A stretch of 64,000 nucleotides of DNA, taken from NCBI GenBank assembly GCA_016869435.1, contig VGEB01000001.1, positions 62,001 to 126,000 on the forward strand. Reading direction: 5' to 3'. Of the stretch, positions 12,060-14,459 are shown piece by piece (within the stretch, counting starts at the first letter, position 1; each line of letters starts with the position of its first letter). A model generated the notes under the pieces. That model did no database searches and had not been told where the DNA came from. It saw only the letters and a list, made by a program, of their open reading frames with translations. The stretch is from Alphaproteobacteria bacterium (GTDB taxonomy: Bacteria; Pseudomonadota; Alphaproteobacteria; Rhizobiales; Beijerinckiaceae). The position numbers and the translations under genes were made by a program.

Positions 12060-13595
12060 ATGAAACACATTCTCGAGGGGCTCGAACAGCGGCGCGCGTC
12101 GGCGCGGCTAGGCGGCGGACATAAGCGCATCGAAGCGCAGCACGCTCGCGGCAAGCTCACTGCGCGCGAGAGAATCGATCTGCTGCTCGATCACCAGTCC
12201 TTCGAAGAGTTCGATATGTTCGTCGCCCATCGCTGCACCGATTTCGGTATGGATCAGGGCGAGAAAATCTCCGGCGACGGCGTCGTCACCGGCTGGGGAA
12301 CCGTCAATGGCCGCGCCGTTTTCGTCTTCGCCAAGGACTTTACCGTCTTCGGCGGCTCTCTTTCGGAGACTCACGCGCAAAAGATCACCAAGCTGCAGGA
12401 CATGGCGCTCAAGAATCGCGCCCCGATCATCGGCCTGTTCGACGCTGGCGGCGCGCGCATTCAGGAAGGCGTCGCGGCGCTCGGCGGCTATGGCGAAGTT
12501 TTCCAACGCAATGTGCTCGCCTCCGGCGTCATTCCGCAAATCTCGGTGATCATGGGCCCCTGCGCCGGCGGCGACGTTTACTCTCCGGCGATGACGGACT
12601 TCATTTTCATGGTGCGCGACACGAGCTACATGTTCGTCACCGGACCGGACGTGGTGAAGACCGTGACGAACGAGACCGTGACGGCGGAAGAACTCGGCGG
12701 CGCGTCGGTGCATACGACCAAGAGCGCGATCGCCGACCGCGCCTACGACAACGATGTCGAGGCGCTGCTGCAGATGCGGCGGCTGATCGATTTTCTGCCG
12801 TCGTCCAATCAAGAGGAGCCGCCGGAGTGGCCGGCTTTCGACGAGGTGGACCGCCTCGACGATTCGCTCGACACGATCATTCCGGACAATCCCAACAAGC
12901 CGTACGACATCAAGGAACTTATTCATAAGGTCGTCGACGAGGCCGATTTCTTCGAAATCCAGGAAGCGCATGCGCGCAACATCGTCATCGGCTTCGGCCG
13001 CATCGAAGGGCGCACGGTCGGCTTCGTCGCCAACCAACCGCTCGTGCTCGCCGGCGTGCTCGACATCGACGCCTCCAAAAAAGCTGCGCGCTTCGTGCGC
13101 TTTTGCGACTGCTTCAACATTCCGATCGTCACCTTCGTCGACGTACCGGGATTTCTACCCGGCACGGCGCAGGAGTATGGCGGTCTCATCAAACATGGCG
13201 CGAAGCTGCTTTTCGCTTACGCCGAAGCGACTGTGCCCAAGGTGACCCTCATCACGCGCAAGGCGTTCGGCGGCGCCTATGACGTTATGGCGTCGAAACA
13301 TCTTCGCGGCGACGTCAACTACGCCTGGCCGTCGGCGCAGATCGCCGTCATGGGCGCGAAGGGCGCAGTCGAAATCATTTTCCGCGCCGACCTCGGCGAT
13401 CCGGAGAAGATCGCTCAGCGCACCAAGGAATATGAAGATCGATTCCTGTCGCCGTTCGTCGCCGCTGAGCGCGGTTACATCGACGAAGTGATACTGCCCC
13501 ATTCGACGCGCAAACGAATCGCGCGCGCGCTTGCGCTGCTTCGTCACAAGGAACTCGAGAACCCATGGAAGAAGCACGATAACATTCCGCTGTGA
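12060..13595 (+). CDS. pccB: Acyl-CoA (propionyl-CoA) carboxylase beta subunit
   Basis: A 511-residue biotin-dependent carboxyltransferase that moves CO2 from carboxybiotin to an acyl-CoA, most likely propionyl-CoA to give methylmalonyl-CoA. Motifs are the [17 protein letters not shown] start, [21 protein letters not shown] and [12 protein letters not shown] (first oxyanion hole), [10 protein letters not shown] and [12 protein letters not shown] (second). The GQ-type start at ATG 12060 has CAGGAC upstream. The partner biotin carboxylase/BCCP subunit and the mutase genes are not in the window. The 20-bp spacing from the ClpP-like gene suggests, but does not prove, co-transcription. Confidence 0.92.
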
Positions 13596-13739
13596 CGAAC
13601 CGCGGCCAACGCCGAGTCAGATCACTCACGTCGCGCCATTTCGCCGCAGAGCCTTTGCGCCTAAATCAGCGGCGCCCCATCACAAAATTCGCCAAAGTGC
13701 TTCATTTTTGAAGTGACAGGCCGAATCTTTTGTCATAGT

Positions 13740-13985
13740 GTGCGCTCGCCAGGTTGGTTGGGTAATAGCCTAAGCGTCGAATGCGTCGCGGGATTAAGGC
13801 CCAGCTACGGTCCAAGTCGGGGAGGACGCCGAACAGAACGCAGTTCGCCGAGGCTCGAAGTTTAGCCCGCGAACAGGCTATCGGAGCGACTTAAGACTTC
13901 GGAGCATGGCGTTTCAGTTCGGTTAAGGACGGGGTGCCAAAGAGCGGGGAGCGGCGGGACGCCATCCTCGCTCTTTGTGTTTTTT
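13740..13985 (+). ncRNA. Candidate structured non-coding RNA (unidentified)
   Basis: No credible reading frame fills the 540 bp between pccB and trxA, yet the stretch ends in a very strong terminator. Long-range pairs nest in order: 13743-13747 with 13884-13888, 13765-13771 (ATAGCCT) with 13875-13881 (AGGCTAT), and 13787-13792 (CGCGGG) with 13866-13871 (CCCGCG), giving a rod with internal bulges. The 5' end near 13740 is a guess. A 6S-like RNA is one possibility because of the rod shape. I found no RNase P, SRP or tmRNA signature motifs and no riboswitch I recognise. Confidence 0.5.
13938..13985 (+). terminator. Strong rho-independent terminator
   Basis: CAAAGAGCG (13938-13946) pairs perfectly with CGCTCTTTG (13969-13977), with an inner GGCG/CGCC hairpin, followed by TGTTTTTT. 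The T tract is on the + strand only, so it ends a rightward transcript from the region upstream of trxA. Confidence 0.85.
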
Positions 13986-14138
13986 GACTTGCGAGTCAGG
14001 CGTTAAAGAAATTGCTACGCCGAAAAGCATATCGCTACTCGCCTGAACCTGAGCAGCTTGTCCGTCGCCTTGACGGGCGATGAGGCGCTTCCTACTTTCC
14101 GCGCACGTTTAGCGAAAAGCCCCGATGAAAGGCCGGCC

Positions 14139-14459
14139 ATGTCAACTCAGAAAATCACCGACGCCACTTTCGAACAGGAAGTGCTCAATTCCGCCGAGCC
14201 GGTCGTTGTCGATTTTTGGGCGGAGTGGTGCGGTCCATGCCGCATGATCGCCCCTGCCCTCGAAGAGATCGCTTCGGAAATGAAGGGCAAGGTCAAAGTC
14301 GTTAAGCTTAATATCGACGAAAACCCCGCGGTGGCGAGCAAGCTCGGCATACGCTCGATTCCGACGCTCATTCTGTTCAAGGACGGCAAAGCCGCCGCGC
14401 AAAAGGTCGGCGCCGCCCCCAAGGGAGAATTGTCGCGGTGGATCACCGCGGCCGTGTGA
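14139..14459 (+). CDS. trxA: Thioredoxin
   Basis: A 106-residue thioredoxin with the redox site [10 protein letters not shown], the cis-Pro loop [11 protein letters not shown] and a typical C terminus ([11 protein letters not shown]). It reduces disulphides of cytoplasmic proteins using electrons from thioredoxin reductase. ATG 14139 has AAAGG about 6 bp upstream; a longer in-frame start at 14058 would add an atypical leader. It is a single-gene unit behind a terminator. The opposite strand is fully open across the whole gene, as an extension of the convergent DUF4010 gene. Confidence 0.97.

Follow-up and report, generated by a model that had tools for sequence, protein, structure and literature searches.

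The analysed window, a stretch of DNA of 64,000 nucleotides, contains a 543-bp gap without a protein gene (13596-14138) between the end of pccB at 13595 and the start of trxA at 14139. A preliminary description had reported a gap of about 540 bp that lacks genes and is closed by a strong one-way terminator, and both statements were found to be correct. The structured RNA gene that it placed in this gap is likewise borne out by conservation, a promoter, a terminator and covariation, its extent being corrected to approximately 13746-13983. Computation showed this segment to be an independent RNA gene of approximately 240 nucleotides with its own σ70-type promoter and terminator (Table 1).

Table 1. 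Features of the RNA gene between pccB and trxA (positions in the window)
Feature	Position	Strand	Remarks
-35 element GTGACA	13713..13718	+	40 of 45 homologous loci, bona fide αr9 among them, have RTGACA ahead of the core
-10 element CATAGT	13734..13739	+	Aligned; constant spacing to the -35 element in Methylocystis and Methylosinus
RNA gene, very probably a divergent αr9 RNA	13746..13983 (ends approximate)	+	Model R1 matches over all 237 positions, 223.5 bits; model R2 also matches here, with 172.5 bits
Closing helix P0, 5' side	13748..13750	+	Pairs with 13933-13935; 93-99% of cells paired; G-U, A-U, G-C and U-A variants
Arm P1 with inner hairpin P1a	13755..13807	+	P1: 13755-13762 with 13800-13807; P1a: 13774-13777 with 13783-13786
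Invariant core GGUCCAAGUCGGGGAGGACGCC	13809..13830	+	Near-invariant; predicted pairing site for suhB-type sRNA
Mini-hairpin GUC[GGGGAG]GAC inside the core	13816-13827	+	
Arm P2	13828..13923	+	13828-13834 with 13917-13923, variable region inside; 6 of 7 pairs changed on both sides
Second GGAC	13927..13930	+	Pairs with core GUCC 13810-13813; conserved across Beijerinckiaceae members
Intrinsic terminator AAAGAGCGGGGA...UCCUCGCUCUUU and U run	13938..13981	+	Hairpin 13938-13977
Unit predicted for M. sporium 5, just downstream of pccB			TSS approximately 7 nt after CATAAT; 3' end at CUCUUUGUGU

In a whole-genome search of 61 relatives, 32 proved to have the stretch in conserved form; with few exceptions, these belong to the same genus. 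Almost every full-size Methylocystis genome has the RNA, as do all 10 Methylosinus genomes examined; the named records that carry the stretch belong to Methylocystis, and the exact core also occurs in Methylosinus. A search with the core in viral contigs gave no match. The + strand was found to fold better than shuffled sequences (z = -2.8, with 1 of 200 shuffles as good), the - strand to a lesser degree (z = -1.5). A small protein was considered and rejected: close relatives differ by frame-breaking indels of 1 and 2 nucleotides, a pattern that identifies the stretch as non-coding, and no start codon is conserved. Aligned copies share the promoter GTGACA-N15-CATAGT/CATAAT, which spans 13713-13739 in the window, with -10 forms such as CATAAT, CATATT and CTACGG-like sequences in the relatives. 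The -35/-10 regions of Methylosinus (locus L071, for example) form an inverted repeat, TGACA-N14-TGTCA, which is probably coincidental, since it is not kept in all Methylocystis. The terminator is paired in 98% of cells in Methylocystis and Methylosinus; its stem is also near-invariant in sequence among the aligned copies, and 13 of its 16 pairs show double changes in the wider sequence set.

With regard to the fold, anchored alignments gave a closing helix P0, an arm P1 with P1a, a core helix, a mini-hairpin, an arm P2 and the terminator. This supported fold is a branched structure and replaces the nested rod that had been proposed. In the wider set of 30 sequences from Methylocystis, Methylosinus and other Beijerinckiaceae (alignment A4), 89.8% of cells pair and 33 of 45 pairs are changed on both sides, including seven of the eight pairs of P1 and all four of P1a. 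The covariation score of this set is 0.343, compared with 0.164 for shuffled and 0.06-0.10 for slid partners, these controls serving as a counterweight to an alignment that was fitted to the structure and favours the fold. Covariation in a narrower set of 31 sequences was weaker and unchanged in direction. The covariation among Methylocystis and Methylosinus relatives that the preliminary description proposed to look for was found, and it is strong in the wider set. Its three helices fared less well: two of them consist of strings that occur in the window and complement each other there but are not conserved as helices, ATAGCCT/AGGCTAT being pairable in 62% and CGCGGG/CCCGCG in 57% of cells among 31 relatives. 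The third, CGCTC/GAGCG, pairs in 100% of these relatives, solely as part of the terminator stem. The mini-hairpin has the general form GUC[NGGGAG]GAC across the alignment. The core helix, GUCC with the second GGAC, pairs in 87-93% of cells; a local GUCC/GGAC hairpin inside the core is an alternative to this long-range pairing, and covariation does not discriminate between the two, as all of these bases are invariant.

At nearly all Methylocystis loci read, the RNA lies between pccB and trxA. At the Methylosinus loci, pccB is beside the RNA and trxA was not found there; in genome G006, the RNA is flanked by an nfu-like gene and nadC, with neither pccB nor trxA adjoining, and in genome G107 by proS and tgt. 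These differing neighbours indicate an independent gene, which has no functional tie to trxA. That the RNA is a 5' leader or riboswitch of trxA, as could be suggested by the trxA gene that follows it in most of the Methylocystis loci that were read, is scarcely credible: the terminator and approximately 155 bp precede the trxA start, and the position upstream of trxA is not constant, as neither the Methylosinus loci nor G006 were found to have trxA next to the RNA. 6S RNA, which had been named as the main alternative, shares length and position with the window RNA and nothing more, and the chance that the locus is 6S or a second 6S is negligible, given that the same genome has a full-length 6S gene of 67 bits at a separate locus (G000:C71:1198-1352) and that the 6S model (RF00013) does not match the window locus at E<=10. 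Among the relatives, 56 of 61 were found to have 6S RNA. The Rfam scan proposed at the outset returned zero matches for the window sequence even at E<=10, and that of the Methylosinus loci also found nothing. A literature search for a methanotroph motif, "Methylosinus-1", found no paper.

The RNA need no longer be called unidentified, since intermediates tie it to the αr9 sRNA family (RF02343), known since 2007 as an orphan sRNA. In S. meliloti, αr9 (SmrC9, sra32) is a 149-nt, σ70-dependent, Northern-confirmed transcript, which is expressed in log phase and undetected in nodules (PMC2780559, PMC2245857, PMC2848018) and co-precipitates with Hfq (PMC2848018). The sequence gaTGAC-n17-CTA.AT lies upstream of its mapped 5' end, and its TB3 element is the sole part conserved in primary sequence, the remainder being supported by covariation (PMC2245857). 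The published location of αr9/SmelC289 is beside proS (PMC3927594). No assigned function for αr9 was found in the searchable literature; the M. sporium 5 transcript map names EcpR1 and αr45 (PMC12403871).

A covariance model built from Methylocystis, Methylosinus and one G107 sequence (R1) was found to match full-length relatives in other Beijerinckiaceae genera with 30-46 bits (E 1e-12 to 1e-7). These relatives have retained the second GGAC as well as the GTGACA promoter, and their core reads AGUCCAAGUC-NN-GGGAGGAC. G107, with 91 bits to R1, is a member of the window's group and is located at proS like αr9. With the core pattern, two more families of this order (f29 and f14) yielded five shorter RNAs, for all of which RF02343 is the sole Rfam match at E<=1, full-length and at 29-41 bits just under the Rfam gathering cut-off of 45 bits. 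In two other genomes, RF02343 matches above the cut-off, and the same core (GGUCUGAGUCUUGGGAGGAU) and promoter are present there. A second model (R2), built from Beijerinckiaceae sequences alone with no αr9 sequence included, led to RNAs with the core in additional families, and at nine of these loci a divergently oriented proS lies upstream. The RNAs of other families have in common the core GGUCYAAGUC-NN-GGGAGGA and an RTGACA promoter. Six R2 matches (L193, L195, L197, L198, L201 and L206) were rejected, as the core is absent and the matches are terminator-only or empty. R1 gives weak matches to the αr9-type RNAs from other families (E 5e-4 to 0.016), and loci L165 and L167 are matched by neither model. 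Outside the order, a class-wide search for the core pattern returned only the window's own genome.

The window core, GGUCCAAGUC-G-GGGAGGA, carries the motif found in bona fide αr9 matches, and we infer that it corresponds to the published TB3 element. The window promoter, GTGACA-N15-CATAGT, has the published αr9 form, and the terminator and several hairpins of αr9 are also present, in an RNA of approximately 240 rather than approximately 149 nucleotides. RF02343 does not match the window region or genome at E<=10 and its cut-off is not reached, and the window copy lies at pccB-trxA instead of beside proS, so that the RNA is not filed in the Rfam family as now modelled. The window genome has no other αr9 match, and its own proS locus is without the RNA. 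Nevertheless, sequence, promoter, structure and synteny, followed link by link through the intermediates, make the window RNA, very probably, a relocated, enlarged and strongly divergent homolog of αr9. The range of αr9 now extends to methanotrophs and other Beijerinckiaceae, which Rfam had missed.

Several genomic positions of these RNAs can be distinguished. Five Beijerinckiaceae relatives are located at proS (G107, G076, G115, G146 and G170), other Beijerinckiaceae copies adjoin thrB and tgt, and pccB is the neighbour of those in methanotrophs. Loci L140, L142, L144, L146-L151 and L155 have an αr9-like RNA between thrB and, often, tgt, which is also found at three of the five proS loci; as tgt is beside both types, it marks the ancestral site after proS has gone. 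Three genomes of family f36 (L203, L204 and L207) have a core-bearing αr9-like RNA with an ATGACA promoter and no adjoining proS, which is another relocation. At L157-L160, L164, L165, L167 and L176, which represent many families, mce (methylmalonyl-CoA epimerase) and a ribonuclease-J-like gene lie downstream of αr9. The pccB gene beside the methanotroph copy belongs to the same propionyl-CoA pathway as mce, a coincidence that may be due to chance.

A second conserved RNA was found to mirror the core. A suhB-type RNA (RF00519) is present in all 40 genomes checked, including that of the window (G000:C7:27016-27091), and the AbcR1/2 loci of S. meliloti are annotated as RF00519. The core GGUCCAAGUC-N(N)-GGGAGGA complements the ultraconserved suhB linker UUUCCUCCC-UA/UU-GACUUGGGCC of the same genome: GGUCCAAGUC pairs with GACUUGGGCC and GGGAGG(A) with (U)CCUCCC, the core being nearly the reverse complement of the suhB stretch, and the two variable core bases face two variable bases of that stretch. 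The predicted duplex of the αr9 core with suhB of the same genome reaches -33 to -41 kcal/mol in 28 of 28 genomes, and in each of these 0 of 200 dinucleotide shuffles of suhB attain the native energy. For the window core, the duplex energy is -37.6, compared with -32.4 for the best of 3000 random 90-nt segments of the window; within the RNA, only windows over the core reach such energies. As a side observation, the suhB loci (G000:C7:27016-27091 and L209-L239) share the invariant stretch GGGCGUUUCCUCCCUWGACUUGGGCC across the order, and many genomes contain between two and five RF00519 matches that differ in strength.

Matched changes are also observed. In G006, αr9 has CCGAGUC (A to G) and suhB has GACUCGG (U to C), which converts an A-U into a G-C pair, and a U-A pair of most lineages is G-U in Methylocystis and Methylosinus and G-C in G162. 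Pairing of the αr9 variants GGUCUAAGUC, GGUCUGAGUC and AGUCCAGGUC with suhB is retained by wobble. When partners were swapped across genomes, using 22 distinct αr9-suhB pairs, 60 of 5000 permutations were equally good, a count that ignores relatedness and comes from two partners so highly conserved that few positions are able to covary. Full-length cofolding gave a net energy of -15 kcal/mol, within the range of shuffled suhB sequences; this moderate value is explained by both RNAs being well folded, with the core partly paired internally.

No αr9-like RNA was found by BLAST, pattern or model in G007, G012, G014, G019, G022 and G027, which belong to the same genus. These are mostly small genomes of 1.4-3.0 Mb, and one or more suhB-type RNAs are kept in all four of them that were checked. 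It is possible that the partner was lost in streamlined, or is missing from incomplete, small genomes of the Methylocystis genus.

AbcR sRNAs repress S. meliloti mRNAs by means of CCUCCC anti-Shine-Dalgarno motifs, one of which lies in an "ultraconserved" stretch (PMC8844928). The window RNA is probably an αr9-type sponge or antisense partner dedicated to suhB/AbcR sRNAs. It would act in trans, presenting its core within a branched scaffold, and the exposed GGGA/GGGG loop could nucleate pairing with the anti-Shine-Dalgarno CCUCCC of suhB, which might then extend to approximately 17-20 bp, probably with Hfq, a protein that is encoded in the window genome. By imitating a target, the core would mask the stretch through which suhB/AbcR sRNAs repress transporter mRNAs. 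The outcome could be the blocking or destabilisation of suhB, with αr9 as a sponge or a co-degradation partner. The complementarity and its conservation are shown; that the two RNAs bind, which of them controls the other and how Hfq takes part are inferred.

Three other functions can be envisaged. A divergent αr9 might act directly on mRNAs or the ribosome through its Shine-Dalgarno-like GGGAGGA, the suhB complementarity being secondary; we regard this as unlikely. GGAGG is able to pair with the 16S anti-SD, but the duplex predicted between the core and the tail of the 16S RNA (-12.8 kcal/mol) is no better than those of shuffles. The invariant stretch far exceeds a Shine-Dalgarno motif, whereas its match to suhB covers approximately 17-20 bp in every genome tested. 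The predicted targets of S. meliloti sra32, fliM and smc01800 (PMC2245857), agree with direct action on mRNAs; these predictions, however, rest on the variable part of sra32, nt 60-95. It is rather improbable that the roles are reversed, with suhB as the effector and αr9 as its target, for instance in co-degradation, instead of a sponge. Complementarity in a duplex is symmetric, AbcR sRNAs act on many RNAs (PMC8844928), and sequence does not decide the direction of control; nonetheless, the order-wide invariant core, the conserved scaffold and the separate promoter fit a dedicated regulator better. Several invariant GGA motifs in or near loops could point to a core that binds a conserved protein, such as a GGA-binding regulator, with a coincidental complementarity to suhB. 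This is very unlikely, in view of duplex energies that exceed all shuffles in 28 of 28 genomes and the matched changes in G006 and G162; moreover, the homolog SmrC9 is a known Hfq binder (PMC2848018).

On balance, we also favour the broader reading that the whole αr9 family may be an order-wide dedicated antisense RNA of the suhB/AbcR-type sRNAs of the Rhizobiales/Hyphomicrobiales, kept through core pairing over approximately 17-20 nt and co-evolving with its partner, the Methylocystis/Methylosinus form being the most remodelled. A prior report of an αr9-suhB link was not found in open papers. The authors of the AbcR interactome stated that sponges of AbcR remain to be sought (PMC8844928), which suggests that the link had yet to be recognised in 2022. 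Large networks of transporters are under the control of AbcR/suhB sRNAs in alphaproteobacteria associated with plants or animals, and the same presumably holds for methanotrophs. If the proposal is true, it would assign a role to αr9 and reveal an element that controls suhB, and a few mutants would suffice to test it.

Compared with known systems, the window RNA most resembles αr9/Smr9C/SmrC9/SmelC289/sra32. Both have the core GGUC-AAGUC-NN-GGGAGGA with a small hairpin, a σ70 promoter of the RTGAC type that precedes the core by 67-125 nt, a terminator and hairpin arms that vary by covariation, and close relatives of the window RNA are located at proS. The window RNA differs in its length (approximately 240 compared with 149 nt), in a core with one variable base instead of two, in the pairing of GUCC with the second, downstream GGAC, in a larger P2 region, in its position at pccB-trxA rather than proS and in falling outside RF02343 even at E<=10. 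6S RNA (RF00013) is alike as a structured RNA of approximately 150-250 nt, and differs as a separate gene without a match in sequence or structure. The suhB RNA (RF00519, including AbcR1/AbcR2, also called αr15) is the proposed pairing partner and not a homolog; it bears the complement of the core, UUUCCUCCCUWGACUUGGGCC, and is shorter, with another fold. Finally, the proposed mimicry of a target site that binds the seed of an sRNA is shared with known sRNA sponges, such as the GcvB sponge cited in PMC8844928. In contrast to these, the window RNA is an independent gene conserved across the order, with a much longer complementarity.
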